A stretch of DNA of 64,000 nucleotides, from NCBI RefSeq assembly GCF_014279655.1, contig NZ_CP047946.1, positions 1,674,001 to 1,738,000 of the forward strand, given 5' to 3'. The number at the start of each line of letters is the position of its first letter. Position 1 is the first letter of the stretch. Of this stretch, positions 44,075 through 62,284 are shown one piece after another. This DNA comes from Synechococcus sp. ROS8604. Lineage in GTDB: Bacteria; Cyanobacteriota; Cyanobacteriia; PCC-6307; Cyanobiaceae. The notes under the pieces are model-generated. The model had not been told where the DNA came from and did no database searches. It worked only from the letters and a program-made list of their open reading frames with translations. A program made the position numbers and the translations under genes.

Positions 44075-44100
44075 AGCTCCTGCCATTACAGGGGCTTTTT
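44075..44100 (+). terminator. array terminator, unit 4
   Basis: AGCTCCTG and CAGGGGCT arms with T-run. Confidence 0.8.
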
Positions 44101-44444: not shown

Positions 44445-44461
44445 TCCTTTTCAGAGCAAAT

Positions 44462-45749: not shown

Positions 45750-46449
45750 ATGCAATCCAATCCCTTCGCAATCACCATTGATGGTGAGCAGTATCCTTCT
45801 GTAAGTAAAATTTTTGCAGTCTGACCCTAAACGTAAGACGTATTACAAATCAGTTGGAGCAAGACGTAAACAGGCATTCAAAGACGGTGATGCTGCAGCT
45901 ACCGGGAGACACCGAGGCGATTCTTTACATGCTGCATTCGCTCAATACATAACAACAGGTGAGTGTGATGTATCTCCTGTCTATATGGAGTTCTGGAATC
46001 ATCTCTACCAATTCATTATTCCCTTCAATATCAAACCTGTATGGGCTGAGGCTCCATTGCTTCCTGAGCATCAGCACTTCACTAACGGTGATACCAGCTG
46101 CATTTGGAGCAAGAAAGGAAAGTGGCTAGGTAAGCCAGACCTGATTGCAAACTTTGAGGGTGTGAATGCTGTGATCGAAATTAAAACCAGCAACCATCCA
46201 TACACTAAGTCCTTTGACCGGAGACAGTTCCTTAAGTACGGCGGGTTCTATTCATACGCCTACGCATCTATGCAGACAGCTGCTTACTCACAGTGCTGGA
46301 AGGAATGCACTGGAGAAACTATTGACGCTGGAATTGTCATCAACGTGATGCGTGACGGTCTTCAGATGTTTGTTGTTGAACATCCTGAGATGCAGTTGCG
46401 GCTAAAGAACTTCAGGAAGCTTGCCAAGGACTATCACGCTGCTCATTAG
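45750..46449 (+). pseudogene. PD-(D/E)XK nuclease gene with single-base frameshift
   Basis: From ATG 45750, 24 codons (FAITIDGEQYPSVSKIFAV) run into a stop; the next frame, from 45814, carries the rest: QSDPKRKTYY, TGRHRGDSLHAAFAQYI, the catalytic GKPDLIANFEG and AVIEIKTS (the D and E-x-K of PD-(D/E)XK), and a C-terminal helix. The N-terminal ITIDGEQYPSVSKI phrase is the normal start of these phage exonuclease-like proteins. Removing one T from the T5 run at 45811-45815 restores PSVSKILQSD. Start at TTG 45814 (211 codons) would make a protein lacking the N-terminal strand. Confidence 0.75.
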
Positions 46450-46456
46450 TCAGTAT

Positions 46457-47083
46457 TTATTTTTTCCCAAAATATGCGCGGTGCATCGCCATCCCTTCAT
46501 TCGTTGCCTTAAGTGCATCGCCTGCCATACGTAGGCGGTCGTACTGATTGTTCAGCTCTGATGCCGACATCTGGTCGTAATCCATAACGTCAACAGCTGG
46601 TGTTGCTGGTGGTGCAGTAGGCAATGCACCTGATGGGCTGCCACTACTATTGCTGTTGATCAGAGAGCGACCGTCAGTTACGTCACTGTCGCTGCGAATT
46701 GGATTGTCTTCGGAGCCGTGCATGAGGAGGATTTCATATGGATTCCCATCATCACCAGTAATGGAATATTGACTAGTGATTCCACCACCCCCGTCGTTGA
46801 AGGTAGTCAGCAAGTTGCCACCATCAATTGTCACAGCGGTCCCGGCTGGAGTGCCGTAATCGATGCCGTCATGCATGCGTTGACCTCCGTTAATTGGGTC
46901 TTCTCGCATTCCATAAGGACTGGCTACTCCATACCTATCAGTAAGCAACTCGCCACCAACTCTCATCCTATTTGTGAAACGGTTTGGATTTACGAACCCA
47001 CCGGCGTTGACATCCCAGACCCTGAAGTCAAGATGATCTCCCGTTGTGCGAGATCCTGTATTTCCGGTATAAAAAGTTGCCAT
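46457..47083 (-). CDS. M23-type peptidoglycan endopeptidase-like protein
   Basis: A lysostaphin-type domain: GMREDPINGGQRMHDGIDYGTPAGTAV has the H-x(3)-D zinc ligands and the GTPAGTAV strand, and LLMHGS may supply the third ligand, though the usual H-x-H is degenerate. The N-terminus (FYTGNTGSRTTGDHLDFRVWD) looks like a tail or surface-domain start rather than a signal peptide. The C-terminal third is Ser/Pro-rich. Such proteins open the cell wall in phage tails or lysis modules. Confidence 0.75.
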   Translation of the reverse strand: MATFYTGNTGSRTTGDHLDFRVWDVNAGGFVNPNRFTNRMRVGGELLTDRYGVASPYGMREDPINGGQRMHDGIDYGTPAGTAVTIDGGNLLTTFNDGGGGITSQYSITGDDGNPYEILLMHGSEDNPIRSDSDVTDGRSLINSNSSGSPSGALPTAPPATPAVDVMDYDQMSASELNNQYDRLRMAGDALKATNEGMAMHRAYFGKK

Positions 47084-47179
47084 GACAGTATTGTTAACAA
47101 ATCTCTTCCTTAATTATATCTAGGCCCACATTATTTGAATCTTTTAGTTAATATAGTAATAAGCCATTCGTATAATCAT

Positions 47180-48028
47180 ATGCCTAATGAAAACAAACCA
47201 CAACTAACAATTGATGCCGTCAAACACTGCGTTAATGCAAACATGACGCAGGCTGATATCCTACAAAAATATGGCGTAAGAATACACGCACTACGCAAAT
47301 TACTAGAAGCCAACAATACTTCAATGCGGAAGCTTAAGCCGCCACTTATGCAGACCCTGCTTGATAACTTTGACCAATGGAAATCAGACGGAAAAAATCA
47401 CGCTGAGGTGGCTGATCTCATTGGAGTATCTCGGCAAACCCTTTATGCGATGTTGTTCAAGAAAGGTTTGAGCTTCTCTAACAGGACGAACACTAAGTAT
47501 GCAGAAGACCCGGAAATGCAAGCACGAGCTGATGATGTTGGTCATCATATTCTTACTAAAGGTGGTTCTGTATCAGGCGCAGCAAAGTTACTGGGGTACC
47601 CCGAGCACGAGCAAGCCATTCGAGTAATTCTTAAAGCGCGAGATATTGATTTGGAACTTCACTACTTCGCACATCGAAGGTTCTCTAACTGGCTGACATT
47701 GCCTGTTGCAAGACAGCAGCATCCGAGCGGGAATCATTCGATGGACAAAATTCGGTGCAAGTGCTTGCGGTGTGGGGCTGAAGCGTGGGTCCGTTATTCC
47801 AATTTGCTTGGAGAGAAAAGTAAGTGCTGTAAATCCTGCGCTAAGTCCCCAAGCATCAAAGTTCGTTGCGAGGAAACACAAGAAGAGTTCCGCTCAATGA
47901 TGAGTGCTATCAAGCATTTCAATATCAGAGCAGCATATTCAAACGTAAATTATCATCTAAAGAAAAACGGTCGCTATAGCGTTAGCGAGGGTGTGACTTT
48001 GGTGCGTGTTGTTAAGGAGGTGAAGTGA
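47180..48028 (+). CDS. HTH and zinc-ribbon DNA-binding protein, endonuclease-associated
   Basis: Helix-turn-helix segments (LTIDAVKHCVNANMTQADIL, SDGKNHAEVADLIGVSRQTLYAMLFKKG) lead to a four-Cys zinc knuckle (KCLRCG, CCKSCAK) and a C-terminal intron-endonuclease-type repeat (VRCEETQEEFRSMMSAIKHF). The start is placed at ATG 47180 since the preceding codons are not conserved in character. Its stop overlaps the GIY-YIG start (TGATG), with AAGGAGGTG just before it. Likely the DNA-binding partner of the GIY-YIG enzyme. Confidence 0.65.
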   Translation: MPNENKPQLTIDAVKHCVNANMTQADILQKYGVRIHALRKLLEANNTSMRKLKPPLMQTLLDNFDQWKSDGKNHAEVADLIGVSRQTLYAMLFKKGLSFSNRTNTKYAEDPEMQARADDVGHHILTKGGSVSGAAKLLGYPEHEQAIRVILKARDIDLELHYFAHRRFSNWLTLPVARQQHPSGNHSMDKIRCKCLRCGAEAWVRYSNLLGEKSKCCKSCAKSPSIKVRCEETQEEFRSMMSAIKHFNIRAAYSNVNYHLKKNGRYSVSEGVTLVRVVKEVK

Positions 48029-48657
48029 TGACTGGCCGTAACTATTACGTTTATATCTACTATTCAGAAGAATGGATTCCTTACTATGTGGGTAAGGGTG
48101 CTGGCAGACGATGTTTCGAGCGTCGCGAAATTCCTATCCCTGACAAAGAACATATTTCTCGCTTTTACTTTTTTACTGAGCAGGAGGCGTTTGACACAGA
48201 GGTTCAGCTGATCGCACACTTCAGACGCATTTGTGATGGGGGGACGCTTTTGAATAAAACTATCGGCGGGGCAGGTCCCTCAGGCTGTGCGCGTTCAAAG
48301 GAAACACGAGCCAAGATTCGAGCTGCGCGTATAGGAAGAAAAGTCACAGAAGAGACACGAGCCAAGATGCGTGGACGAAAACACACAGAAGAAACACGAG
48401 CCAAACTTCGTGGACGAAAATTCACAGAAGAAACACGAGCCAAGATGCGTGAATCCCATACCAGAACTATTCCAGTCTGGTTTATATCTCCGCAGCAGGA
48501 TATTCATGAAGTTCGGAGTGTCACTCAATTTGCACGAGATAATGATCTTCTTCCTCAATGCTTAAATAGAGTTTCTTCGGGTCATAGGTCCCATCACAAG
48601 GGCTGGACGCTGCACCCATCTTCGCCACATCTAAAATGTAAACAGCAGGAGCAATAA
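48028..48657 (+). CDS. GIY-YIG homing-type endonuclease
   Basis: The N-terminal catalytic domain carries NYYVYIYY (GIY) and YYVGKGAGRRCFER (YIG with the conserved Arg). The middle is a run of NUMOD3-like DNA-binding repeats (KETRAKIRAARIGRKVTEET, TRAKMRGRKHTEETRAKL, TRAKMRES), and a helix-turn-helix end follows. This is the layout of free-standing seg-type endonucleases of phages. A strong SD (AAGGAGGTG) and overlap with the upstream gene couple the two. Confidence 0.85.
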   Translation: MTGRNYYVYIYYSEEWIPYYVGKGAGRRCFERREIPIPDKEHISRFYFFTEQEAFDTEVQLIAHFRRICDGGTLLNKTIGGAGPSGCARSKETRAKIRAARIGRKVTEETRAKMRGRKHTEETRAKLRGRKFTEETRAKMRESHTRTIPVWFISPQQDIHEVRSVTQFARDNDLLPQCLNRVSSGHRSHHKGWTLHPSSPHLKCKQQEQ

Positions 48658-48659
48658 TT

Positions 48660-49169
48660 ATGCAACGTAACGACCCCTCATCCTTATCGTTTGGCGCTCG
48701 CTTAAAATCCGTTGAAGAAGCAGCGATCAATAGCAAACGCAAATTAGAGGCACTTGAGAAAACAGCTCTCGACCCTGAGCAAAAGAAAGACGCCAATGAG
48801 CGCCGACGTTTGAAGCGTAAGGAGACAGCACGCGCTTCAGGATTGCTCACTTCTGCAGAGGCATCTCTTGCTGACCTTGAGAGCATTAACCAGGATCTTT
48901 TACCGCTTGCTCAACGCGACCTAGTGCAGCAAGACATTGTTGCAAGGAAGTTTGCAGATGCAGCACCTTCGCCTATCAAGTTCACACCTGAGGCCCAGTT
49001 GCGTATCCGAAACTTCCAACAGTCAGCGGGCGGCAAAAATCACGCGGAGATATTTTCTAGGAATAACCAGGCACCAACACAGCAACAGAAAAAGAACTCT
49101 GCAGCGTATGACTACTACGAACGCAAGCGTATTACTGAGCAGCAACGCTCACGCAGATTTGGCAACTAG
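48660..49169 (+). CDS. charged coiled-coil protein (169 aa)
   Basis: Polar, Lys/Glu/Arg-rich helices (KSVEEAAINSKRKLEALEKT, EQKKDANERRRLKRKETARA) and a Gln/Asn-rich basic C-terminus (APTQQQKKNSAAYDYYERKR). It resembles scaffold or internal virion proteins in composition. Two bases after the GIY-YIG stop. Its end overlaps antisense with the minus-strand gene at 49166. Confidence 0.6.
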   Translation: MQRNDPSSLSFGARLKSVEEAAINSKRKLEALEKTALDPEQKKDANERRRLKRKETARASGLLTSAEASLADLESINQDLLPLAQRDLVQQDIVARKFADAAPSPIKFTPEAQLRIRNFQQSAGGKNHAEIFSRNNQAPTQQQKKNSAAYDYYERKRITEQQRSRRFGN

Positions 49170-49330
49170 CTCTCGCGTAGCCCATCTGAATTCAAGTTAT
49201 CTAAAGCATCGATAACTTCTAGAGTGTCTTTGGATGGTGCAGCCGCAGAAGGAAGCACCGTCCGCTTGAACAAGGCACCATCGTGGAGTACGTGTTTGCC
49301 ATCAGCGGTGACGATCTGTTTTTTATTCAT
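49166..49330 (-). CDS. small hypothetical protein (54 aa)
   Basis: Starts at ATG 49330, where it overlaps the stop of the 401-residue gene (TGATG), and ends at 49166. MNKKQIVTADGKHVLHDG and EVIDALDNLNSDGLRES suggest a small soluble protein. The stop-start overlap, typical of coupled genes, is the main evidence. Confidence 0.6.
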   Translation of the reverse strand: MNKKQIVTADGKHVLHDGALFKRTVLPSAAAPSKDTLEVIDALDNLNSDGLRES

Positions 49331-50535
49331 CAGCTTCGTCCTCGTGGGTAGCGCATCATTGGCTCACGTCCTTCGAGGAACTCCCCATAGACATTGCCAT
49401 TAATGAGTGGCCCCATGCCGCGCATTCCTTGCTGGGCTTCAAGCTGTTGGCCGTATTGTTCGCCGTGAATCACAGGCCCATAAGCCGTATTACTGGTAGG
49501 CATCTCAGTGACTGCTGCCGGGTTTCTTGAGGAGTTGCTCTGCGCTTCAGCTGGAGTTCCAACGGGATTAGGGTTCGTATATAGCGCGTTGAAATCTGTT
49601 TCTGAGATTCGATTTGCGGAATAATCACGCACTGCTTTGTCGGAGACTTCTTTGAATCCGTCATCTGTATTGCCGTAGTAACGACCTCCTGCCCTGACCA
49701 CTCCCAAGGCCCTATCTCTCTCCCTCAATCCGAGCAAACTGTTCTCAGAATCAAGGAATGCATAACGGCCACGTGTGCCAGCAGACATGGTGCTTTCGCC
49801 ACGCATACTCTCTACATCTCGGAGTGCGTCACGTAGACGATCGCTGCTTATTCCAGAAGCCGCATCTGTATTGCTATTAACCGCTGAAAGATTGGTTGCG
49901 TAAGTTGCTCCGTCAGCGATTGGACCTACTCCTCTAGTCCCGTTAGTCGCCTCAAGCATCTGTCCATAAGCTCCTCCCTCAACAACAGGACCAATGCCAG
50001 ATGTTTGCTGCTGCTGCTGTGGCTTAGGTCGTGAGTATCCAGGTTTGTAGTCAGAGTACGAACCAAGACCTAAGCGTTCGTAAAGGTCATCAACGTCTTG
50101 CATTCCCATAATTGGGGCACTGCCACCACCAGGACTTGTTGAGGTCCCTCTACTGCCATCTGGTTTAGGGACATCTCTTGTCGGTGAACTAAGAGGAGAT
50201 GGATTATCTGCCCTGTCACCAGTACTTGGATTAATTGAATACCCATTCGGTGCAGGTTTGCCGGTCTGAGGATTCAGTGCTCTACCTGATGCTCTGTCGT
50301 AAGTCACCCCAGATACGGTGTATGTGTTCTCAGCAGGTGATAGCGGCAGCGTGTTTGTGTTAGTCGGTTCAGCCGTACTATTTGAGCCTTCAACTAGGAC
50401 AGGCACACCATCCAGCCCAATTGTGTATTGCGGAGCAGTGCGTCTTGCCTGATTTCTCCGCACAGTCTGAGGGCGATAGGTGCTATCTGTTCCGTAATAA
50501 TACGGGCTATTCCTGTCAGTATTACCGTTCGACAT
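49330..50535 (-). CDS. repeat-containing virion-like hypothetical protein (401 aa)
   Basis: Ser/Pro/Gly/Asn-rich, with an internal repeat: GPVVEGGAYGQMLEA and GVGPIADGATYATNL in the middle, then YGPVIHGEQYGQQLEA and GMGPLINGNVYGEFLEG near the end. Four copies of a G-P-x-x-x-G-x-x-Y unit. Disordered linkers surround them. No signal peptide. Such repeats are common in phage or injection-type proteins; no family recognised. Confidence 0.62.
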   Translation of the reverse strand: MSNGNTDRNSPYYYGTDSTYRPQTVRRNQARRTAPQYTIGLDGVPVLVEGSNSTAEPTNTNTLPLSPAENTYTVSGVTYDRASGRALNPQTGKPAPNGYSINPSTGDRADNPSPLSSPTRDVPKPDGSRGTSTSPGGGSAPIMGMQDVDDLYERLGLGSYSDYKPGYSRPKPQQQQQTSGIGPVVEGGAYGQMLEATNGTRGVGPIADGATYATNLSAVNSNTDAASGISSDRLRDALRDVESMRGESTMSAGTRGRYAFLDSENSLLGLRERDRALGVVRAGGRYYGNTDDGFKEVSDKAVRDYSANRISETDFNALYTNPNPVGTPAEAQSNSSRNPAAVTEMPTSNTAYGPVIHGEQYGQQLEAQQGMRGMGPLINGNVYGEFLEGREPMMRYPRGRS

Positions 50536-50616
50536 GATTGATCACAGCTTGCTTCTTATATGTTTTTATTGTAGCTAAATATCACTTGCTATCTCTAGCT
50601 TGTTATACAAAAACTC

Positions 50617-50838
50617 TCAGGGGCGGCGTTTTTTGCGTTGGAAATTTTTGCCATAGTCGCTGTAAAAGTTCAAAAAATATTTCGTGGCTATATGCGGCAT
50701 CGACTTTCTGCTGAGCCGCTGTGGAGAAAAATCGCCATAGGGCCTATAAATTGAAACAAAATTTCTGACACGTCTAATATACTCACTACCCCTAAGCTCC
50801 CCCAAACAAAAAAATAAGGGGATATACACAACAGCCAC
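50617..50838 (-). CDS. possible small membrane protein (73 aa), weak
   Basis: An N-terminal hydrophobic stretch (MAVVYIPLFFCLGEL) and a basic C-terminus. AT-rich and without a clear ribosome binding site. Could be a chance ORF. Confidence 0.25.
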   Translation of the reverse strand: MAVVYIPLFFCLGELRGSEYIRRVRNFVSIYRPYGDFSPQRLSRKSMPHIATKYFLNFYSDYGKNFQRKKRRP

Positions 50839-51399
50839 TAAGTATCAACGCAAGATATAACTTCAGTTATATATTCAGTAATCAATTGATAACTGAAGCT
50901 TATCATTCGCTCTGACTTTAATGTTTAACTTCTGTTCTGCATTTGCTTTGCTTAAGTTAAATACTTTTGCTAATCGCAAGTTAAGCAGAAGTCTAAACAA
51001 GCAGAACAGCCAACTGCGCTTCGCTTCGCTCGCTCTGTAACAGCCATTGAACGAACAAGCAGCGAGCAGGAACAAGCAGGACTGTTTTCTATGCAGCATT
51101 CAATCTATTGATTGCAGATGTTACTGAAGTATTGCTCAGTCATTTCTTGTAGGACTTATCAGCTAACTCTCAGTAAGAAGATGCTTGACACAAGTCAGTT
51201 GCTGTGGTGATGATGGTTGCAACGTCAATGACGCAGAGCTGCAGCGCAGTAGCTTTGTTGAGACAATCAAACTTCCGTGGATTGCGTTCAACCCCACGAG
51301 AGCCGCTGTAATTGGTGGCCAGTAAGTAGAGAGTAAGGACCACACACCAATCAGCAAGAGCTGAGGTGCGAGTGGCATATTCACTTACAGCTTTAACTA
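50839..51399. other. noncoding stretch with inverted repeat
   Basis: About 560 bp with no gene I can support. CTTCAGTTAT and ATAACTGAAG (about 50862-50871 and 50889-50898) form a 10-bp inverted repeat. The rest shows no coding pattern; the region may hold promoters for the + strand genes to the right. Confidence 0.4.
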
Positions 51400-51555
51400 A
51401 TGACACGCGCAACCCATTCTGCCTACCGCACTTTTGTAGCTGGGGATAGCCGTCGTATGACCATCGGCAGCATGACTCTGCAAGCACAGACTGCTGATGT
51501 TGCTCACTATGTTCGCCGTCGCAGGACCAGTGGTGGACTGGGCTTGGCAGCCTAA
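51400..51555 (+). CDS. small basic hypothetical protein (51 aa)
   Basis: ATG 51400 encodes AYRTFVAGDSRRMTIGSMTL and a strongly basic end (HYVRRRRTSGGLGLAA). The codon pattern and internal strand-like phrases look coding, but no family is known. The longer antisense frame over it looks random. Confidence 0.4.
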   Translation: MTRATHSAYRTFVAGDSRRMTIGSMTLQAQTADVAHYVRRRRTSGGLGLAA

Positions 51556-51811
51556 ACATTCATAGGTGTGTAGCCCCTATCAATACTTTATGCGCCACTA
51601 ATCGCGGTAGTATTTAGTAACAATTAAGGGCAGAATAGTCACAACTAGAACACACCTAGTCCCTTATTCTGCGCTATGATTAATACATAGAGAGAGTTAT
51701 ACAACCTTTTGGTTATAACTAACTCTAAACAACAACAGAACAGCCAGCCGGGTTACCCCGGCAATTTGCAAATCGCCCAACAAAAGGCAAACAACTACCG
51801 AGTAAAATCTA
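51556..51811. other. leader region of the small-protein block
   Basis: AT-rich with TATGATTAAT-like promoter sequence near 51677. Just before the first gene GCCGGGTTACCCCGGC (about 51748-51763) forms a hairpin; similar CCGGG/CCCGG hairpins recur at 52072-52087 and 55212-55227 before other genes of this block, so this may be a shared leader motif. Confidence 0.45.
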
Positions 51812-52060
51812 ATGACAACAACAGCTATTGCACCAGCTACATTCAATACTGCTGACTTGACAGAAGCACAGCTTCAGCAGTTACAGGGCTTCATTGAAAC
51901 TAAGCAGTTCTGGAACTGTGTTTCTGACTTCGTTCAGCAAGGGCTTCACGATTTCGCACAGACTTTGAGCAGCGATGAAGATGCCGTGTTTGATATCCAA
52001 GATCAGTTGGAAGAGCTTGTCAGCTTTGACGGTGTTCGCATTGAAGGACTGAAGAACTAA
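51812..52060 (+). CDS. small acidic hypothetical protein (82 aa)
   Basis: Helical and acidic: NTADLTEAQLQQLQGFIETK, QQGLHDFAQTLSSDEDAVFD. No signal peptide or known family. Preceded by a hairpin-bearing leader and followed by the membrane protein at 52191. Confidence 0.6.
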   Translation: MTTTAIAPATFNTADLTEAQLQQLQGFIETKQFWNCVSDFVQQGLHDFAQTLSSDEDAVFDIQDQLEELVSFDGVRIEGLKN

Positions 52061-52190
52061 CAGCCATAACTTGGCCGGGTAACCCCGGCTATTTGACGCA
52101 GTGGTCTATGGGTTTAAGAGAGCGAGGATTGCCAGGGCTCACACTTATAGACCAGCCAATACTTTCACATTTACTTTTAGGAGAACACTA

Positions 52191-52754
52191 ATGCCTTTAC
52201 AGAAGAATAAGAACGGACGCTTTGAGTTCGTGCCAGCTACCAGTGGACAACCAGGACTAGAAGGTATTGCTTTTTCCGGTTGGCTTGCTCCAGACTTAAA
52301 CCTTGATGGGGACAGTATGTTCCTTGATGGTGCAGCTGAGCTAAGTATTTCCGGCACAGTATTTGCTGGTGTCTATGCAGGACTGATGAAGTTCCTAGAG
52401 CTGGAACCATTAGTCAAGGTCGGCGCACTGAAGAGACGGCAACAGCTGTCTGAGGTAAAAACCGCCGCCTTTGAATACACCAGAGACAAAGCGATATGGA
52501 TTATCTGTATCGCTTGTATCGTCGCCTTCCTTCCAGGACTAGCCCCAGTATTTGGAGTGCTCGGTTTCCTTGGAGCCAGCACGATGAGCATTCGTTTGGT
52601 CCGCCAGTTCTTTGCCTCTATGAACGAGGAAGAGTTGCAGAAGCTGCGTGATGCCGCCGCTGCTGCTGGTGTTGAGCTGAATGTTCCAGCACCCGTCACT
52701 ACTACTGCTACGACTGGCGATGTAGATGACGAACCTCTTCCTACGTTCGCTTAA
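52191..52754 (+). CDS. membrane-spanning hypothetical protein (187 aa)
   Basis: The start is ATG 52191 (MPLQKNKNGRFEFV), with AGGAG just before. A polar N-terminal domain of ~100 residues precedes two hydrophobic segments (IWIICIACIVAFLPGLAPVFGVLGFLG), an acidic/amphipathic helix (EEELQKLRDAAAAAG) and a Thr-rich acidic tail. It would be an inner-membrane protein by topology. No family recognised. Confidence 0.62.
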   Translation: MPLQKNKNGRFEFVPATSGQPGLEGIAFSGWLAPDLNLDGDSMFLDGAAELSISGTVFAGVYAGLMKFLELEPLVKVGALKRRQQLSEVKTAAFEYTRDKAIWIICIACIVAFLPGLAPVFGVLGFLGASTMSIRLVRQFFASMNEEELQKLRDAAAAAGVELNVPAPVTTTATTGDVDDEPLPTFA

Positions 52755-52841
52755 TTACTCTTGCAAACTATTAACTAAATCTAAAGATAGCCTCTCTATT
52801 CAATAGCGGGGCTTAACTAATCCTTAACCTTTGTTATTACT

Positions 52842-53102
52842 ATGACTAAACCACTCATTCAATCGTTGCTATGGACAGCTGCAATCGTGCACGTTCTTGG
52901 CCAACGCTATGTTCTTCCGTATCTTACTGCTGTATTTCAGCAGCTCTACGTAGATATCACAGGTGAAGAGCATACTCAGCTTGTAGTAGCTCCAGTTGTT
53001 GTGACTGCTAAACCTACTCCTGTTAAAGCCACACCAGCAAGGGCTACAAAATCTAGGACCAGAAAACGCGCCGCCGCTGTTACTCCTGTGGCTGTTGCCT
53101 GA
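52842..53102 (+). CDS. small membrane protein with Lys/Arg-rich tail (86 aa)
   Basis: One hydrophobic stretch (PLIQSLLWTAAIVHVLGQRY and PYLTAVFQQL) followed by a Thr/Pro/Lys/Arg-rich tail (KPTPVKATPARATKSRTRKR). The basic tail may bind nucleic acid or lipid. The next ORF begins two bases downstream. Confidence 0.58.
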   Translation: MTKPLIQSLLWTAAIVHVLGQRYVLPYLTAVFQQLYVDITGEEHTQLVVAPVVVTAKPTPVKATPARATKSRTRKRAAAVTPVAVA

Positions 53103-53104
53103 TT

Positions 53105-53260
53105 ATGCATAGTCTTCAGATTATTCCACCCCAGCTCAAGTCATATACTCCCGAACGTTATTACAGAGACATTGAATACAGAACGCTGATAGACCTTGAG
53201 CACATTGGTGAAAGGCACGAACGTCTTATGTATCTATTTGGAAGGCGCTCTGAACTATAA
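53105..53260 (+). CDS. small hypothetical protein (51 aa)
   Basis: ATG 53105, two bases after the previous stop. Residues PPQLKSYTPERYYRDIEYRT and ERHERLMYLFGRRSEL make a helical, charged protein. The tight spacing and codon use support it; too short for standard calling. Confidence 0.55.
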   Translation: MHSLQIIPPQLKSYTPERYYRDIEYRTLIDLEHIGERHERLMYLFGRRSEL

Positions 53261-53299
53261 TAGACACAGACATGTTATACAAAAATACGGAGATAACTA

Positions 53300-54067
53300 A
53301 TGCCGATATTTGGATTCTTACCAGGTGCCTCTGAGCAGGACATGATTGATCGAGAGGTTGCTGATCTCAACCCCACACGCACAGGTTCTGCTGATAGGAC
53401 AGGTTCGTGGAATTGGCAAGATGACTTTGGCGCTTGGCTCGCTGGCACCAACCGTGACCGGGTAATCCAAGGAGCAGCTGATAAGGAGAACAAGAGACTT
53501 CAACAGCTCTACTCAGGCCAGGCTCAGACCAACAGTGAAACCTTGGGGCCTCTGGCTCCTCGGTATACAGGTAATACCGAAGGACTGACTGTTCAAGAGA
53601 TCGACGCTCGCATTGCTCAAGACAGGCTTCGTGGTGAAACGTTCGTAGCTGCTTCAGCTAATCCAAATTTTCGCGGCTCTACTCTTGATCCCAACTCAGG
53701 TGTTGGCGCTATTACCGCTGCCGTATCTGCAGGTAATCAAGACAAGGAAGACAAGGACAAAGCTGAGAGGAACGCAGAAACTCGTCGCCAAGAAGGACGT
53801 CAGGAAGGAGCAGAGCGCAGGCAATCTCAGCGTGAACTTGGTATCGAATCCCGTGCCAGAGATCAACGCAATCACGAGTTGTCTTTAAGCAGGCTCGACT
53901 CTCGTGAAGCACGGCTCCGTGCAGCAGAGTCAGACCAGTTAACACTCCAACTGGAATACGCCCGGCTTGGACAGCGTGATCGTGAACGTCGGGCTGACCG
54001 TAAGGACAAGGCAATGATGATGCTTCTCCAGGGGCTCGGTAACCTCGGCGCTGGCTTCACTATCTAA
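53300..54067 (+). CDS. charged coiled-coil protein with hydrophobic end (255 aa)
   Basis: A Trp/Gly-containing N-terminus (IFGFLPGASEQDMIDREVAD), a polar middle, a long Arg/Glu-rich coiled coil (RQEGRQEGAERRQSQRELGI and on) and a short hydrophobic Met/Leu/Gly end (KAMMMLLQGLGNLGAGFTI). Coiled-coil with hydrophobic terminus resembles injection or tail-tip proteins. Terminator at 54091. Confidence 0.6.
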   Translation: MPIFGFLPGASEQDMIDREVADLNPTRTGSADRTGSWNWQDDFGAWLAGTNRDRVIQGAADKENKRLQQLYSGQAQTNSETLGPLAPRYTGNTEGLTVQEIDARIAQDRLRGETFVAASANPNFRGSTLDPNSGVGAITAAVSAGNQDKEDKDKAERNAETRRQEGRQEGAERRQSQRELGIESRARDQRNHELSLSRLDSREARLRAAESDQLTLQLEYARLGQRDRERRADRKDKAMMMLLQGLGNLGAGFTI

Positions 54068-54090
54068 AGCAGATACTTCTATAGACAAGA

Positions 54091-54117
54091 GCCTCAGTTA
54101 ACACTGGGGCTTTTTTT
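54091..54117 (+). terminator. terminator after the coiled-coil gene
   Basis: GCCTCAG and CTGGGGC arms around TTAACA, with seven Ts. Confidence 0.8.
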
Positions 54118-54168
54118 ATGCGGCTACGCCGGGCGGCCAGAAATTCTACGTAGATTTTTGCCGCGCTA

Positions 54169-55122
54169 TTAGAGCTTCATGTATTGCCGGTAGTCACCGC
54201 TGTTATACACAGACCAGGGCGTTAGGCCACCGGCTTCGTTGTACACATCGATAGCAATGTCAGCGTTCTTGCCTGGGTCGCGCAGGTCATCAACGGTGTA
54301 ACCCCTACGCCTTAGTTTGTCGCCATGACTTTGAGAATTTATTTGAAACAGGCCTACGCTGAATTCGTTTGATCTATTCGGGTCAAGTCCTGATTGAACA
54401 GTATCGATTGTTGGGTTACCACCTGATTCGCCCATACCTACTGCAGCCAGTTGTCGTGCGGTCCCAGGATCCATGCCTCTATCAACGAGCAGTTGCTGCA
54501 TCTGATCGACGGAGTAACGACTGCCTCCTCCATTGCTGATGCCCTGACCTGCAGCAAGTGACTGTGCACTGGAGATAGGTGTCGTGCCAGGAGACTCGGG
54601 TGAAAGTGGAATAGTGGAATCACTGGTTGGGATTGAGCTCGGTGTGGAGTTCTCCAGGTCTGTTCTCATCTCATCTATCTCTGTACGTAGGTCCGTAATG
54701 CTTTGGTTCCTACCCAAGAGCTGTTGCTGGAGCATCTCTTGATAGAGGTCTGGCTCATCTTTTTTCAAACGTTCTTTATTTGCGAGCCCCAGTATCAGCG
54801 CTCCTCCAGCCAGGAGTCCAGCCTTACGTGCACTACGTTTCGAGGCAGCGATTGATTTATCTCTGTCCTTGGCAATCTCTGCGCCTTTAATTTGAGTGGA
54901 AGCATCCATTGATGCGTTGTTGGCTTTGGCATTTGCCATGATGACTCCAATCCGTTCGTCACGCTCAGCCTTAATTGCTTCCTCACCAAGTGCTCCATAG
55001 TCAGGCTTATTATCTGCTAAGGCTTGACGTGCTTTAAGGTTTTTTCTGACAGCTGTATTTCCTGCAGCAATATAGTTTCTAACGTTGGCCATATTATTGT
55101 TAGAACCTTTTAATATATTCAT
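54169..55122 (-). CDS. lytic transglycosylase (lysozyme-like) protein
   Basis: The last ~110 residues are a SLT-type fold: AAVGMGESGGNPTIDT gives the catalytic Glu with following S-G-G-N, FSVGLFQINSQSHG and AGGLTPWSVYNSGDYRQYM complete the signature. The first ~210 are a coiled-coil/basic region with a hydrophobic AGLLAGGALILGLAN stretch. Starting at ATG 55122 is supported by GGAG four bases upstream. Cleaves peptidoglycan glycan strands; a phage-like virion location is inference. Confidence 0.8.
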   Translation of the reverse strand: MNILKGSNNNMANVRNYIAAGNTAVRKNLKARQALADNKPDYGALGEEAIKAERDERIGVIMANAKANNASMDASTQIKGAEIAKDRDKSIAASKRSARKAGLLAGGALILGLANKERLKKDEPDLYQEMLQQQLLGRNQSITDLRTEIDEMRTDLENSTPSSIPTSDSTIPLSPESPGTTPISSAQSLAAGQGISNGGGSRYSVDQMQQLLVDRGMDPGTARQLAAVGMGESGGNPTIDTVQSGLDPNRSNEFSVGLFQINSQSHGDKLRRRGYTVDDLRDPGKNADIAIDVYNEAGGLTPWSVYNSGDYRQYMKL

Positions 55123-55262
55123 TCTACTCCACATTCCTGGGCGCAAGGGTTGTGTAATCAATCCTTAAGTAAATATTAAGCTGCATAATCTCGGCGCTTT
55201 AACAACAGCAACCCAGCCGGTTAACACCGGCCATATGTATTCGTGTTCTTCTACTGAACACA

Positions 55263-55625
55263 ATGACTACAACTGCACGTCCATTAAAGCTGCTCAACCT
55301 TGGGAGTTTTGTTCTGACACGTGGTGTCGCTGACTTCATTGATACCGGTGTGATGCCTTATGAAGATGAGCCAAGGGCAAACACTCTTGGTCTTGATTGG
55401 CGGCGGCACTGGATCACTGTCTGCGTAAGTTCACATGCTGAGGGTTGCTGGGGTGACACCTGCCCAGAAGATGCTGCCCTCAATGATGAGGTCTTCAGCA
55501 ATGCATGTGGCGGCAGGTTAATGAGCACCTGGCACCACTCAGGTTTTCCAAAGCTTTGGATCATCACCGAAGCCTATGGCACACCTGATTGTTATACCTG
55601 CGCTCTTTGGCCGGAAGAATATTGA
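55263..55625 (+). CDS. plasmid-related hypothetical protein (120 aa)
   Basis: Matches the pattern of small 'plasmid related' proteins found on plasmids and conjugative elements: LGSFVLTRGVADFIDTG at the start, GCWGDTCPEDAALNDEVF in the middle and LMSTWHHSGFPKLWIITEAY then ALWPEEY at the end. The family function is unknown. It carries extra cysteines (CVSSHAEGCWGDTC). Followed by a terminator at 55635. Confidence 0.65.
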   Translation: MTTTARPLKLLNLGSFVLTRGVADFIDTGVMPYEDEPRANTLGLDWRRHWITVCVSSHAEGCWGDTCPEDAALNDEVFSNACGGRLMSTWHHSGFPKLWIITEAYGTPDCYTCALWPEEY

Positions 55626-55634
55626 GCATCTAGT

Positions 55635-55656
55635 CCCGCTTTACAGCGGGTTTTTT
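55635..55656 (+). terminator. terminator after the plasmid-related gene
   Basis: CCCGCT and AGCGGG arms with TTAC loop and six Ts. Confidence 0.75.
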
Positions 55657-55685
55657 CTTTGGTGTTCATTCTCCATCAACAATCA

Positions 55686-55970
55686 ATGACAAGTACCACC
55701 TCTGCACAGTCGCAGTTCTCTTTGCCTGTGTTCAATATTAATGGCACTTCTCCTGCCTCGATTCAAGATGAGTACAACAATGCAATGACTACAATCCGTA
55801 AGGCAGAACAGCTGCTGTTGAACTGTACTTGTCATGCTCGTGACTTCCAGTTCCAAACCTACGACCGATATCTAAAGGCTAGAGAAGAGCGCGAGCAAAT
55901 GCTTGAGCAGCTTCGTTCAGTCCACGACTATTGCGAAGTCTGGTATTGGCATGCTGTCGAACCAAACTGA
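55686..55970 (+). CDS. small hypothetical protein (94 aa)
   Basis: A Ser/Thr-rich start, then a helical bundle (YNNAMTTIRKAEQLLLNCTC, DRYLKAREEREQMLEQLRSV) with several Cys and Trp residues near the end (DYCEVWYWHAVEPN). No family recognised. Terminator 55985-56006 follows. Confidence 0.55.
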   Translation: MTSTTSAQSQFSLPVFNINGTSPASIQDEYNNAMTTIRKAEQLLLNCTCHARDFQFQTYDRYLKAREEREQMLEQLRSVHDYCEVWYWHAVEPN

Positions 55971-55984
55971 GCCCCTAAAACACT

Positions 55985-56006
55985 CCTCCTTAACAGGAGG
56001 TTTTTT
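55985..56006 (+). terminator. terminator
   Basis: CCTCC and GGAGG arms around TTAACA, followed by six Ts. Confidence 0.75.
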
Positions 56007-56049
56007 CATTAGTGTTCTCTACCTAGGGGACATCCATTGCTAGATATCA

Positions 56050-56784
56050 ATGACACTATCTATTGTTCCATCTGATGAGCGTGGCATTAACAACCTCGCT
56101 CAAGGGATGACAGGTTTCCTGGATGCTGATGAGGAAGCTCTTCAGCAATCAATGATGACAACCCTCTTCATTGGTGGTGCATCTGCTGAGAGCGGCGGTC
56201 GTGCTGCTTACTTGTTGATGGACGACGGTTCAAAACTGCATGTGCCTAACTCACTACGCTGTTGGATTGTTGACCTCAAGATAGTTGAGCAGAGATATCA
56301 ACAATTCGATGCTGTGGACAAGTTACTTATCCGAGTAACTGCTGCTGACGGGTCTTCGTATATCTACCGCACATCTCTCAATAGCTGGACAGCATCTAGC
56401 TTCTTGCAGAACTTCAAGTACATGACCAGGCAACAACTGTCTGATCAGGTGATGATCACGCTTGTCCCGAAAGGGAGGGCGACATTCGTCAACGTGCAGT
56501 ACTGCGAAGGTGGCTCCTTCCACCGTGTCGAGATACCCAAGTCTGAGTTCGGCTCAGGCAAGATGGGCTATGACGACATGCTTGATGCCATCAGTCATAC
56601 CAATGGCACTGCCCAGGACAACGACGACTCGCCTGTGATTGAAGCTCAGCTTTCAAAAGAGGAAGAGCCTTTCGAGGTTCGACCTGAGGATCTCGATGAG
56701 CTAATCGAGGAGGTGAAAGCAATCAAGCTTCCATCTAAACGCAGGCGTTCTTCAGTTACTGAAGCACTGGAGACTGTTGTCTGA
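56050..56784 (+). CDS. hypothetical protein (244 aa)
   Basis: A two-part protein: a ~175-residue beta-rich part (AYLLMDDGSKLHVPNSLRCW, DKLLIRVTAADGSSYIYRTS, RATFVNVQYCEGGSFHRVEI) and an acidic then basic C-terminal tail (EEPFEVRPEDLDELIEEVKA, KLPSKRRRSSV). The strand pattern and acidic tail would suit an ssDNA- or partner-binding protein, but no motif is diagnostic. Confidence 0.55.
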   Translation: MTLSIVPSDERGINNLAQGMTGFLDADEEALQQSMMTTLFIGGASAESGGRAAYLLMDDGSKLHVPNSLRCWIVDLKIVEQRYQQFDAVDKLLIRVTAADGSSYIYRTSLNSWTASSFLQNFKYMTRQQLSDQVMITLVPKGRATFVNVQYCEGGSFHRVEIPKSEFGSGKMGYDDMLDAISHTNGTAQDNDDSPVIEAQLSKEEEPFEVRPEDLDELIEEVKAIKLPSKRRRSSVTEALETVV

Positions 56785-56791
56785 ACACCTG

Positions 56792-56817
56792 CCTCCGGCT
56801 AACGCCGGGGGTTTTTT
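56792..56817 (+). terminator. terminator between convergent genes
   Basis: CTCCGGC and GCCGGGGG arms with TAAC loop and T-run; lies between the + gene at 56050 and the - block that follows. Confidence 0.7.
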
Positions 56818-57403
56818 ATTCTTCTGTTTGGCCAAGCTTCTCAGGTGTGAGCATTACTTTCTTTTGCTTGGGCTCTACTGGTGCCAGTAGCTCTGCTTCT
56901 TCTTTAGTCAGAGGAATGAAGGCTCCATCTTGATCCTGAAAATGGACACCAATCTTTCTTCCTTTCTGAACAGCTGTGTAATAGGATTGATTGATAATAA
57001 TATTTTCAATGACGCGCTTCAACACAACGCCTTCGTCTGAGATGTAGTTAGCTAAGCCCAAGCCGTACTGAGTATTCTCATTCTGTCCTTGTAACTCTGT
57101 GCGAGCTGCTGAATCTGTCTCATTACCCAAGAGAGTAGCCAAGGTCATCAGCATGCCAAGGATTACATTCTTATCTACCTCGTTACTGTCTGGTTTATAG
57201 ATGATCTCATTCTTATCGAGAAAGTTTAAGAAGACATTGCTGTGGTACTGACACTCAGTCAACACGTCACCCCTGAAAGATGCATGAGCTAATGCAAAGA
57301 TTTCTTTTTCATCTAGCGTTTTAATCTTTGCATTTAGCTCTTCATCGGTCTTGCATTCTTCTGCCAGCTCTGCGTACCTCTGTTCTGCTTCTTGGATATT
57401 CAT
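56816..57403 (-). CDS. hypothetical protein (195 aa)
   Basis: An acidic helical protein (NIQEAEQRYAELAEECKTDE, LDEKEIFALAHASFRG) with a middle domain around LGMLMTLATLLGNETDSAAR. No motif recognised. Terminal gene of the - strand block that includes the virion-like proteins and integrase. Confidence 0.6.
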   Translation of the reverse strand: MNIQEAEQRYAELAEECKTDEELNAKIKTLDEKEIFALAHASFRGDVLTECQYHSNVFLNFLDKNEIIYKPDSNEVDKNVILGMLMTLATLLGNETDSAARTELQGQNENTQYGLGLANYISDEGVVLKRVIENIIINQSYYTAVQKGRKIGVHFQDQDGAFIPLTKEEAELLAPVEPKQKKVMLTPEKLGQTEE

Positions 57404-57406
57404 GGC

Positions 57407-57757
57407 TCAGTAAATCACAATGTTTCCGTTAGCATCTGCCGTCACATTTCGCGGCGCTTCGTAAGAAGCATTCGGGTTGTAAACAGCCTGAGGCGTGTAG
57501 TTCATATTCGCCACACTGTGATTGCCGTAGTAGCCAGCGTTATCTGATTGTCCGTATAGACCGGGGACGTTATTCATTGCTACCTGTTGTGCAAAACTAT
57601 CTTGAAGTTTTTGTTCTGCACTCACGTATGCACCAGGCACATTCCCCTGTGCTTGGCGGATGACGACACCATCTGATTGTGAGATGGCTGCATTAGCTGC
57701 AGCTGCCTCTTTCATTTTCATGAAGGCTTCTAATTCACGTGGGTTGATTTGTTCCAT
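57407..57757 (-). CDS. Asn/Tyr-rich hypothetical protein (116 aa)
   Basis: Helical start (INPRELEAFMKMKEAAAANA), then a Gly/Asn/Tyr-rich unstructured segment (NNVPGLYGQSDNAGYYGNHS, NYTPQAVYNPNASYEAP). Composition suggests a flexible structural protein. Unknown. Confidence 0.58.
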   Translation of the reverse strand: MEQINPRELEAFMKMKEAAAANAAISQSDGVVIRQAQGNVPGAYVSAEQKLQDSFAQQVAMNNVPGLYGQSDNAGYYGNHSVANMNYTPQAVYNPNASYEAPRNVTADANGNIVIY

Positions 57758-57792
57758 AGCTTTGAACCTTTAGTTGTTTGATTTGTGTTTTA

Positions 57793-58488
57793 TTAATAGA
57801 CCTGGCCAGCACGCATCTCCATGTTCACTTGCTCTGTTGCAAGCCGCATTGCTGTATCAAATGGCATGGGAGCAACCGATCCATCTGCCCGTTGGATTGG
57901 CACCTGCATCAGTGTTGATGCACGGCTATCAATCATTTTCTGGACAGCCATATTTTCTTGGACTTCCATTGGTGTTAGAGCAGCCTGGTTAATGCCGCGC
58001 ATCTCATTGAGTTGATCCATCGCCACAGCTTCGAGAACTTCTTCACTACCCACAAGTTGAGCTGCGGTAGCAACGTTGTTCCTTGCTGCTGCCAGCGGAT
58101 CGCCGCCTACGGATGAGCCACCAAGAGGGTTCAAGTTACTGACCATCCGCCCTGCTACTGCAAGTGGATTGGTCGGTGCGTATTCATTCGCCTGTTGGTT
58201 GTAAGCCTGAGCAATAGAACCAAGAGCACCAGCACCAAGCAGAGAACCGGCAGCAATCTGAGCACGCCTGTCTGTCGGTAAGTACTGAGCAGTCACGGCA
58301 ACATCCATTGCTTCACGTGCACCGGGTTGCTTGCGTAAGAACTCAGGCAACGCATCTAGGTACTGCTCTGACTTATCAACCATTTCGTTTGCACGAATAT
58401 CGTTGCGGCGCTGCTGTGAATTGTCTTTGATTTCTCTACCGAACAAACCTTTCTTAAGTTCAGCGATGTCTCTACGTTGTCTAGCCAT
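57793..58488 (-). CDS. virion-like protein with hydrophobic helix (231 aa)
   Basis: A basic helical start (ARQRRDIAELKKGLFGREIK), a hydrophobic Gly/Ala stretch (AQIAAGSLLGAGALGSIAQA), an NPLGGSSVGGDPLAAARNN-type linker and a helical end. The layout of polar helices around a membrane-inserting stretch matches internal virion or injection proteins. Unassigned. Confidence 0.6.
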   Translation of the reverse strand: MARQRRDIAELKKGLFGREIKDNSQQRRNDIRANEMVDKSEQYLDALPEFLRKQPGAREAMDVAVTAQYLPTDRRAQIAAGSLLGAGALGSIAQAYNQQANEYAPTNPLAVAGRMVSNLNPLGGSSVGGDPLAAARNNVATAAQLVGSEEVLEAVAMDQLNEMRGINQAALTPMEVQENMAVQKMIDSRASTLMQVPIQRADGSVAPMPFDTAMRLATEQVNMEMRAGQVY

Positions 58489-58536
58489 AATCTTTCTCCT
58501 GATTAAAGTTTAAATAATTGGTCTCTAGTTTGTGGG

Positions 58537-60384
58537 TTAAGCAATTGATTGTTCAAGTTCGTTGAACTGACGCATAGCCTGCTCACGTTTAGCGTCTGCA
58601 TTTAATGCACGCTGCCTCGATTCTTGATTAATGATTTGATCAATGGCTGTCTGCTGCACTAGAGCTTCATCAAGTAGAGCTGCCTGCTGATTCCTCTTAG
58701 AGAAGCCGGTCTTGCTATCAGCTATCTCAGCCCTCGCATTCGGATTGGCTTGAGCCATCTCATATTTACGGTCAAGAATTTGCCGCGCATTTTCCCTATA
58801 GGTGTCGTAGTCAGTGCCAGGCAGACGCTCTTCAAAGTTCTTGCGGCGTCGGTTGTCTTCTAGTGCTGCACCTGCTGCCTGGCCCCCAACTAAACCAGTC
58901 AATCCACCAGCTGCTAGTGCTCCGATAACCGCAGGCTTATTACCTCTGATACCTGTACGTCTTCCGGCTAGGGCACCGAGTGCTGAACCAAGAAGTGTGG
59001 TTGCTACTGGTACGCCAGTGTCGTTTAGACCCACGGACTTTCCGAGGAACTGAAGCTCTGGTCCTCTGATTCCGTCGTCGGTTCCTTTGAGAATGCCAGC
59101 AAGATTGAACTTGCCGTCATCGAATGGATTCAGGTCAGTGCCCCTGTCCTGTAGATAGCCCCTGTAGTTGGCGTATTCAGCAGCGGAAACATCAGGACGC
59201 TCAAGCAAGAAGTCATCGGCATCCATCAGACGCCCTTCCCTTCCAAGGAAATACCTCATGCCAACTTCAGCTAAGGCATTGCTTGTCTTCCGTGGGTCGA
59301 TTTCATCTGGTACTGCTGCTGTGTAGCCAGCCTGCCTTCCAGTGATCGTGCCGTTGTCTTCCCCGCCAAGCAGGCCGATGCCGATATTCACAGCCGTTGC
59401 TGCCGGAAGCATTGATGCCAGGTTCACCAGCGTTGGTGAGTAGGCACGGCGCCTGACTTCAAATCTGTTGTTGCCCTTATCGAAACGAACCCTGACGCCA
59501 GGTGCTGCTCGCTTGTAGTTCTTTGCGTTGTTCCTTGAATACATCTCATCGCGGACTGCCCTCTCCGTAGCTGCCCGATCTGCTGCTTCACCTTCTCTTG
59601 TGTAGCCACCAAAGTCAGCTGCTTCTCCAGTCAGGTTCGGCAGTGGCTCACTGATTACTCCCCTGTTGGTGACTGCTCTCTTGATTGCTTCTTCGTCGTA
59701 ATCAGGTGAGTACCTGACCAAGCCTTTATCGATAGCGTCTTGCAATTCCACAGCCTCTTCCCGATAGAGGTCAGGGTTGAGGTGAGCAACGGTTGCTTCT
59801 GATGCCAGGTCAACTGGAGCTTGGATTGCATTGATGAGCCACCAAGCATTTCTGCTGGCGTTATTAGTGAAGTCATTTGCCAATCCGCCAGCTCCATAGC
59901 CAAGCTTCTGCATCAAGGGAGTGTCACGAACACGCTGCTTGTCTCGTGCAATCCGCTTTGATTCTTCTGCTGTTGGTTGGCGCAGCTTGCCTGTCTGCTC
60001 ATTGACCTGCAGATCGGGTAGACGCTGTGCCTCTGCTGGTGCACCACCAACATTCAATCCGTTGTTGGCACGGAAGCTGTACATCCCATCGTTGAATGGA
60101 CCAAGACCTAATCGTTGCAGTACATTTGCCGCAGTTCTGTTGTCTGTAGTGGAGGCGTATTGGCGGACGCTATCGATCAATGGGTGCTGACTAAGTGTCT
60201 GTTGATAGCGGGGAGGGATAGCTGCCTTGCCTTCTGCTTCTCGCCTTGAGTACAGAGCATCGCGCCTATCTTCTGAATCAAGATTGAATGCTTGACCAAA
60301 GCCTTGACCGAAGTTGCTATTACTAATGCCGCCAAGGATATTGTTGATACGAGATTTCTTCTGCTCGTCTTTATCATTATTCAT
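58537..60384 (-). CDS. large glycine-zipper virion-like protein (615 aa)
   Basis: Long polar helices with DNA-like repeats of Arg/Glu, and near the C-terminal third a strongly Gly/Ala/Leu hydrophobic segment (VATTLLGSALGALAGRRTGI, VIGALAAGGLTGLVGGQAAGAAL) that should insert into membranes. An earlier hydrophobic patch (LVNLASMLPAATAVNIGIGLLGG) is similar. Resembles the large internal/ejection proteins of podoviruses but has no recognisable catalytic part. Longest gene of the element after the helicase at 33464. Its stop region abuts the next gene. Confidence 0.65.
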   Translation of the reverse strand: MNNDKDEQKKSRINNILGGISNSNFGQGFGQAFNLDSEDRRDALYSRREAEGKAAIPPRYQQTLSQHPLIDSVRQYASTTDNRTAANVLQRLGLGPFNDGMYSFRANNGLNVGGAPAEAQRLPDLQVNEQTGKLRQPTAEESKRIARDKQRVRDTPLMQKLGYGAGGLANDFTNNASRNAWWLINAIQAPVDLASEATVAHLNPDLYREEAVELQDAIDKGLVRYSPDYDEEAIKRAVTNRGVISEPLPNLTGEAADFGGYTREGEAADRAATERAVRDEMYSRNNAKNYKRAAPGVRVRFDKGNNRFEVRRRAYSPTLVNLASMLPAATAVNIGIGLLGGEDNGTITGRQAGYTAAVPDEIDPRKTSNALAEVGMRYFLGREGRLMDADDFLLERPDVSAAEYANYRGYLQDRGTDLNPFDDGKFNLAGILKGTDDGIRGPELQFLGKSVGLNDTGVPVATTLLGSALGALAGRRTGIRGNKPAVIGALAAGGLTGLVGGQAAGAALEDNRRRKNFEERLPGTDYDTYRENARQILDRKYEMAQANPNARAEIADSKTGFSKRNQQAALLDEALVQQTAIDQIINQESRQRALNADAKREQAMRQFNELEQSIA

Positions 60385-60560
60385 TAGCTTGCATACTCCG
60401 CATAGCTTTCATCAAGCAGCTTTCGAAATACCTCAGCCGTGGAGTTGCAGTTCATCAGAGACTTAAGTTCTTCTGCCTTGAACCTATCCTTTGTTGATGC
60501 ACGAAAGGCAATCAGATTGTCACGTCGCTCAAGATGATTTGTCGTTTTGAAGTAGCTCAT
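60384..60560 (-). CDS. ribbon-helix-helix protein (58 aa)
   Basis: LIAFRASTKDRFKAEELKSL, then NSTAEVFRKLLDESY: strand-helix-helix in the order of small CopG/Arc repressors. The start is ATG 60560. Its stop overlaps the start of the 615-residue gene (one base shared). Possibly the repressor of the virion-like block or integrase. Confidence 0.7.
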   Translation of the reverse strand: MSYFKTTNHLERRDNLIAFRASTKDRFKAEELKSLMNCNSTAEVFRKLLDESYAEYAS

Positions 60561-62230: not shown

Positions 62231-62284
62231 CTAATGCGGCAATTTTAGGGGCAATCCCTAGTGATAGCAACAGATCCCAGTGAC

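Follow-up and report, generated by a model that had tools for sequence, protein, structure and literature searches.

A 40-kb integrated element of Synechococcus sp. ROS8604 as a probable satellite of S-EIV1-type cyanophages

The Synechococcus phage S-EIV1 (KJ410740) belongs to a group that accounts for 3.3% of marine cyanophage content according to PMC5332604, and EIV-type phages are common; the open-access literature, as far as its text was accessible, yielded no satellite of them. In the SaPI1 system, the satellite protein CpmB and the helper scaffold have a RIIK coat-binding motif in common (PMC5644958), and tycheposons and VEIMEs, as presented in PMC11389934, resemble the locus described here in being marine, in their tyrosine recombinase and in being proposed satellites. 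We analyzed a stretch of 64,000 nucleotides of Synechococcus sp. ROS8604 (hereafter the window), part of a one-contig genome of 2.88 Mb, and found that it holds an integrated element of about 40.4 kb, extending from ~21,870 to ~62,285 of the window, which is probably a large integrative satellite of cyanophages of the S-EIV1 type. This reading is the best supported because of kinship with a phage structural operon, a gene subset recurring in four elements and a shared non-coding site; the sequence also shows the integration, and searches in it for capsid and packaging genes found none. The original prediction, drawn from the right half of the element (46,457-60,560), had listed a satellite using a helper's capsid, a very divergent tailless virus and a cell-to-cell DNA transfer apparatus without choosing any; the first is now the best supported of the three, and the interval treated as a unit cuts through the element. 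Proteins are named below by the first coordinate of their gene, and other element regions by E numbers.

The target of integration was the 3' end of an M16-peptidase gene. By neighborhood comparison, the empty sites of four congeners consist of tRNA-Pro, genes of 87 and 156 aa (19,709-20,705 in the window) and then the M16-peptidase gene. The borders carry the following features:

21863..21903, minus strand: left attachment-like site, a copy of the M16-peptidase gene 3' end (ungapped 40-nt match)
62280..62320, minus strand: right attachment-like site within the M16 gene 3' end (border comparison)
60623..62230, minus strand: tyrosine recombinase (Pfam Phage_integrase E=4.9e-7; phrog_1 integrase E=2e-32)

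The best ungapped 40-nt match of the left site to the window's own M16 end has 26/40 identities, where 300 base shuffles reached 23 at most; its matches to the M16 ends of three sisters reach 28-30/40, equalled by 0/200 shuffles for each. Given the empty sites of the congeners, the M16-end copy at the left border and the recombinase gene abutting the M16 gene, we conclude that insertion took place in the M16 3' end and not in a tRNA gene. The tRNA-Pro gene was indeed tried as an attachment site and rejected: none of its 12-mers recurs at the right end of the element, and all four congeners have, at their empty sites, the two genes that separate it from the left border. In a congener, the E253 region (G253:C1:767,103-774,394) adjoins a tRNA-Pro / M16 neighborhood equal to that of the window's element. 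Open reading frames (ORFs) of at least 60 aa cover 87% of the element length; a set of 57 non-overlapping ORFs of at least 45 aa was defined, of which 34 were run against Pfam. Like a satellite, the element is mobile and integrated, with a recombinase and replication genes of its own.

The right half of the element encodes a set of virion-like proteins:

58537..60384, minus strand: late-block protein 1, enlarged relative of the phage structural-operon protein p385 (~42% identity to G201/G202 proteins)
57793..58488, minus strand: late-block protein 2 (homologues in E212a, E307, E212c)
57407..57757, minus strand: late-block protein 3 (homologues in E307, E212a, E212c)
56816..57403, minus strand: late-block protein 4 (homologues in E307, E212a, E212c, E204)
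56050..56784, plus strand: element core protein (14/400 family genomes)
55263..55625, plus strand: conserved element protein (E212a E=2e-65, E307 6e-24)
54169..55161, minus strand: SLT transglycosylase/lysozyme, relative of the phage structural-operon SLT (Pfam SLT_3 E=2.6e-12, above cut-off; G201 E=3.5e-63)
53300..54067, plus strand: relative of phage p236, with C-terminal RKD..M...GL.NLG.GFTI (E=8.8e-9 to G201, 3e-17 to G221)
52101..52754, plus strand: membrane protein conserved in elements (homologues in E212a, E307, E253, E212c; hydrophobic stretches)
49330..50535, minus strand: weak relative of phage p498 (hhalign E=3e-4, probability 39.5%; 15 shuffles <=0.3%)
48660..49169, plus strand: conserved element protein (homologues in E212a, E307, E212b, E361)
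46457..47083, minus strand: M23-like peptidoglycan hydrolase (Peptidase_M23 E=0.0013, below cut-off; S-EIV1 protein annotated peptidase M23, domain E=4.4e-9)

The main phage for comparison was G201 (IMGVR_UViG_3300022074_000019, a viral contig of 77.9 kb); most phage contigs are fragments. Its operon holds a terminase (phrog_38 E=3.8e-68; 54% identical to the S-EIV1 terminase), a protein resembling portals (phrog_64 portal E=0.002; also phrog_20475, virion structural protein) and the major head protein (phrog_1357 E=8.6e-20), which shares 74% identity with an S-EIV1 ORF. In S-EIV1 the major capsid gene (KJ410740.1 60,859-62,010) is apparently misannotated: its C-terminal part alone is annotated (AHV82228), and AHV82227 is called on the strand opposite to the full ORF, the one sharing 74% identity with the major head protein of G201. 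The 615-aa protein 58537 has relatives in two viral contigs, at 41-42% identity in the best segment, and at ten loci altogether with an alignment query; its homologues in E212a, E307 and E212c match at 2e-117, 5e-110 and 5e-114. In G201 the relatives of 53300 and 54169 stand beside that of 58537 in the same arrangement, on opposite strands. The M23-like protein 46457 has its C-terminal tail in common with a G201 protein and its M23 region with the S-EIV1 protein, so that both peptidoglycan hydrolases of the original prediction were recovered. Protein 49330 also matches G216_5545 (blastp E=0.002); p498 is a large phage gene beside the non-coding site described below, which 49330 adjoins in the window. 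The several Gly/Ala-rich membrane-inserting proteins proposed earlier were borne out in part only: the nine proteins tested have a G+A content of 13-30%, and two of them, 58537 and 52101, have a hydrophobic 19-residue stretch above threshold. Counterparts of 57793, 57407, 56816 and 56050 could not be detected among 35 phage families (hhalign probabilities <=3.1%), nor relatives of 52101 among the phages compared, and the phage records gave no match for 58537, 30166 or 57793.

The core protein 56050 has matches in 14 of 400 family genomes (flanks of G141, G286, G292 and G318 were left out). Three further near-complete elements were recognized, E212a, E212c and E307, making four with the window's, in two genera. 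E212a measures ~39.6 kb if bounded by a 13-bp repeat (one of two 13-mers common to both flanks), E212c ~26.7 kb between host genes, and E307, cut by a contig end, at least 33 kb. The block 58537-57793-57407-56816 is kept in all four together with 56050, 52101, VapE and SSB, and EIV-type terminase, portal, capsid or TerS-like genes were found in none of them. The genes 56050 and 56816 are adjacent in the window and E307 and lie at opposite ends in E212a, where the integrase is at the left border and the gene order is circularly permuted, which points to a circular form. Element proteins are under constraint, non-synonymous change being well below synonymous (pN/pS of 0.195/0.648 for 56050, 0.135/0.744 for 55263 and 0.422/0.709 for 58537, with synonymous sites near saturation). 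The full-length SLT protein was matched in the window's genome alone among 300, 12 others matching its lysozyme part only. A single genome (G212:C1) holds two near-complete elements and one partial region (E212a, E212b, E212c); in or beside them, short ORFs that end in a double-glycine-type sequence, reminiscent of prochlorosin precursors, are repeated in arrays.

Searches for capsid and packaging genes were consistently negative. Pfam TerL_ATPase has no match in the whole genome (controls match in 3/14 genomes), and an EIV-type TerL query has none there and matches both phage records searched. Alignments of TerL and of the major capsid protein (MCP) matched 0/13 whole carrier genomes each; the same TerL query matched 7/9 records as a control, and the positive control for MCP came from our own scripts alone. 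The Pfam run on the 34 ORFs returned no capsid, portal or terminase family. We built profiles of 36 structural families from the phage contigs and ran them, at E<=0.05, on all ORFs in eight element regions; 29 remained empty, including TerL, portal, MCP, TerS-like and sigma factor; p385 matched three of the regions, p236, SLT and M23 the window alone, p172 E253, p136 E253 marginally (E=0.046), and S74 the window's SLT protein via a common N-terminal domain. A rerun of 22 of the profiles on seven more regions found p385 in E212c and nothing further. The earlier statement that terminase, portal and capsid are missing thus holds as far as Pfam, EIV-type TerL and the TerL/MCP alignments reach. As in a phage satellite, genes for a complete particle are lacking; an S-EIV1-type prophage would have terminase, portal and capsid genes, and a capsid-forming phage-inducible chromosomal island (cfPICI) or satellite virus would encode MCP, portal and terminase, which the element does not.

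Element and phages have a non-coding site in common:

50705..50899, plus strand: single-copy non-coding site with an 82-nt gap-free core, candidate packaging site, helper-responsive switch or origin (18-mer comparison, profile)

It was exposed by an 18-mer comparison, and none of these 18-mers occurs in 38 kb of host sequence. A profile built from the window, G201 and G218 was searched in the element regions and their flanks (734,326 bases) and in the phage contigs (448,825 bases). The first pass found nine further places (E 1e-15 to 8e-7), in phages G216 and G217 and in E307, E212a, E302, E253, E239, E361 and E212c, and nothing else at E<=1; the second pass added three matches, a weak one in E239 at E=0.0029 and two with E over 5. 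The site is therefore present in 4/11 phage contigs and 8/15 element regions (the window and 7/14 others); of the seven phage contigs without it, four are seemingly cut before its place. It adjoins the first structural-operon genes in the four phages that have it, and occupies 66,725-66,887 in G201. Its core aligns without gaps in 12 sequences, and no reading frame across it is open in all 12; in G217 and the window, short ORFs that overlap the core do resemble one another (E=2.2e-5), which we take for a by-product of DNA conservation. Single-strand folding was not significant (z -1.20 and -1.08), and promoter-like patterns were as frequent as in shuffles (3 observed, 2.6 expected). A packaging site is the function we would tentatively assign, at somewhat less than an even chance, a helper-responsive switch and an origin being the alternatives.

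A further link leads to the interval between portal and capsid genes:

26699..27616, minus strand: candidate capsid-interacting protein, ending in a motif of the EIV portal/capsid interval (phmmer match to the portal-adjacent G201 ORF, E=1.7e-13)

The motif, LEHFG.EAPALLNN.A..VEDA.IEQVG, lies within the C-terminal ~49 residues of 26699. In eight phage contigs the motif-bearing ORF overlaps or adjoins the end of the portal gene, and in five of them, the ones holding both genes, it lies between portal and MCP. A motif profile matched 9/400 family genomes, two of them doubtfully; G140 (motif in a 1382-aa frame) and G074 (weak) were left aside. In other elements and genomes the motif occurs in seven ORFs of 71-137 aa. 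Protein 26699 resembles a fusion, its N-terminal domain and motif domain being separate genes in E212a and E253, a make-up hinting that both domains act together. By analogy with CpmB, it possibly binds coat protein and redirects assembly.

The left part of the element carries replication, regulatory and cargo genes:

23243..23875, minus strand: conserved element protein (homologues in E307, E212c)
24406..24765, minus strand: ribbon-helix-helix regulator (Pfam RHH_1 E=5e-5, above cut-off)
25468..26634, plus strand: BRCT-domain protein (Pfam BRCT E=1e-12)
27910..29277, minus strand: VapE-type replication helicase (Pfam VapE-like E=9e-42; phage and element homologues)
30166..31332, minus strand: putative primase (homologue beside VapE in E212c, E=2e-26)
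33464..35416, plus strand: second VapE-type helicase (Pfam E=3e-28)
35969..36649, plus strand: single-strand DNA-binding protein, SSB (phrog_1607 E=2.8e-7; G201 homologue E=2e-51)
37146..45454, plus strand: cargo of five repeated porin-like genes (five-copy direct repeat; weak IAT_beta match below cut-off)
45814..46449, plus strand: exonuclease (phrog_298 E=1e-13; G201 and S-EIV1 homologues)

A VapE-type helicase, SSB and exonuclease are common to the element and G201. Protein 30166 has no Pfam or PHROG family match, and we take it to be a putative primase from its position and a primase-like motif; no relative of 33464 was found in plasmids. The porin-like array is a tandem inserted between the SSB and exonuclease genes, its first two genes being nearly identical and a small repeated ORF standing before or after each. 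A NUMOD3-type homing-endonuclease-like gene with a four-copy 40-nt repeat lies at 48,025-48,657. E253 carries a type I-E-like CRISPR-Cas set (G253:C1:746,773-758,048; L199, L213; Cas3, Cse1, Cse2 and Cas5 by Pfam) with compact, unusual arrays between the cas genes, consisting of ~24-nt degenerate hairpin repeats and mostly 20-24-nt spacers; the best matches of 15 of these spacers to 719,700 bases of phage sequence were no better than those of shuffles.

We weighed three other explanations. It is very unlikely that the element is an autonomous virus, or resembles one, with capsid and packaging proteins that have diverged beyond recognition. This would account for the many proteins without a known family, in a Pfam run covering 34/57 ORFs, and the predicted structures of 56050 (one sequence, mean pLDDT 39.1) and 58537 (11 sequences, 43.5) are too poor for use. 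The judgement is made because no packaging ATPase was found: a P-loop pattern run on the 57, 61, 56 and 53 ORFs of the four near-complete elements retrieved the VapE helicases (missing that of E307), 30166 in the window and one 265-aa protein of E307, hence no candidate common to the four. Moreover, only 58537 and 56050 come near capsid size among the conserved proteins, and the phage protein to which 58537 is related occurs side by side with a genuine major head protein. Less probable still, to the point of being negligible, is a conjugative or similar apparatus for cell-to-cell DNA transfer, to which the two hydrolases and a single sub-threshold match of 56816 to Pfam TraD (E=0.045, 14.0 bits, cut-off 22.3) might point; both hydrolases are relatives of phage proteins, and the 34 ORFs run against Pfam hold no relaxase, coupling protein or secretion ATPase family, as a conjugative element would.

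The main rival is that these loci are decayed prophages, what remains of a temperate EIV-type lineage after the loss of the genes for capsid and packaging. In its favor, the gene content is phage-like, several members of the family are plainly disrupted (56050 is split or contains stops in G247, G276, G302 and G361), and the window contains a transposase and the repeated cargo array. We nevertheless consider decay unlikely, the main argument against it being that the same presences and absences recur in four near-complete elements of two genera, with equal late-block order and one of them circularly permuted. In addition, the shared proteins evolve under constraint, and three late-block proteins are without counterpart among the phage proteins compared.

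Several results nonetheless count against a satellite of EIV-type phages. Decay is common in the family, since another six regions are either remnants or fragments on short contigs. Among the element regions profiled, the SLT, 53300 and M23 matches are confined to the window's element, and E212c lacks the portal/capsid-interval motif. The site was not found in S-EIV1, G219 and G220, whose contigs appear to span the region. The evidence for p385 as a virion protein, and for the phage motif ORF as a scaffold, is gene position in both cases. Scans of viral contigs, in which an EIV-type terminase was confirmed at no fewer than 577 places, confirmed no relative of 26699, 30166, 56050 or 57793 with a few short patterns, and no encapsidated or viral-fraction copy of the element was found in them. 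L058 (NHEP01000030.1, from the TMED88 metagenome bin), a fragment of a bacterial metagenome-assembled genome, carries a p385 relative, and an EIV-type terminase contig occurs in the same genome; this is probably phage contamination of the bin.

Under the satellite reading, we infer the following course of excision and packaging, dependence on a helper, and roles for 58537, 26699 and the shared site. The element would lie dormant in the chromosome until an EIV-type phage infects. Its recombinase, which would have integrated it into the M16 gene end, would then excise it as a circle, and it would replicate with its own VapE-type helicase, SSB, exonuclease and putative primase. Packaging would take place into the helper capsid with helper portal and terminase, the shared site giving a hold on the helper machinery, most likely as a packaging site, and 26699 may compete for coat protein. 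The element would supply its own internal or ejection proteins, 58537 with 57793, 57407 and 56816, and in the window's case also 53300, the 54169 transglycosylase and the 46457 M23 hydrolase. An element of ~27-40 kb, against a phage of 78-79 kb, would fit a smaller capsid or a head holding two copies. The full proposal is a hybrid particle: a borrowed shell and packaging motor, internal DNA-delivery proteins of the element (an enlarged p385, three partner proteins found only in elements and its own wall-cutting enzymes), an 82-nt packaging-type site and a mimic of a helper assembly factor. We put it forward tentatively, as falling just short of an even chance. An earlier idea that the helper is tailless was dropped: a tail-less S-EIV1 is not borne out by PMC8790148, which counts only two tail-less freshwater cyanophages, S-EIV1 not being among the names.

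If the satellite reading is true, it would identify, for a family of marine cyanobacterial satellites, which phage lineage helps, which site may act in cis and which step is pirated, and hybrid-particle piracy would become testable. The division between the proteins that such a satellite keeps and those it borrows would also reveal the EIV proteins responsible for DNA delivery, the virion of this phage group being poorly understood.

Compared with known systems, the element stands closest to its presumed helpers. S-EIV1/G201-type phages have relatives of 58537, 53300, SLT, M23, VapE, SSB and the exonuclease (the last three in G201), the 53300/SLT arrangement and, in four of the 11 phage contigs, the non-coding site; unlike the elements, they have TerL, portal, MCP, a TerS-like gene and a sigma factor, in genomes about twice as long (77.9-79.2 kb). 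By description, tycheposons integrate in tRNA genes and are set apart by this from an element in an M16 gene end; VEIMEs are found in virus particles; the scans of viral contigs with 56050 and 57793, which use short patterns, confirmed no relative. SaPI1 and other phage-inducible chromosomal islands are, by description, likewise integrated, with their own replication genes and no capsid genes; they are smaller, and the element differs in having relatives of helper structural-operon genes and hydrolases of its own. Like CpmB (PMC5644958), 26699 has a motif in common with a helper protein, coat binding by 26699 being our proposal. Partial dependence on a helper for the particle, as in P4, PLE, cfPICIs and Streptomyces satellite viruses, is the working model here too. 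According to PMC10690885, cfPICIs and Streptomyces satellites encode capsid and terminase genes, which the window's element does not; it appears to have made the opposite choice, with late proteins of its own and a borrowed capsid.

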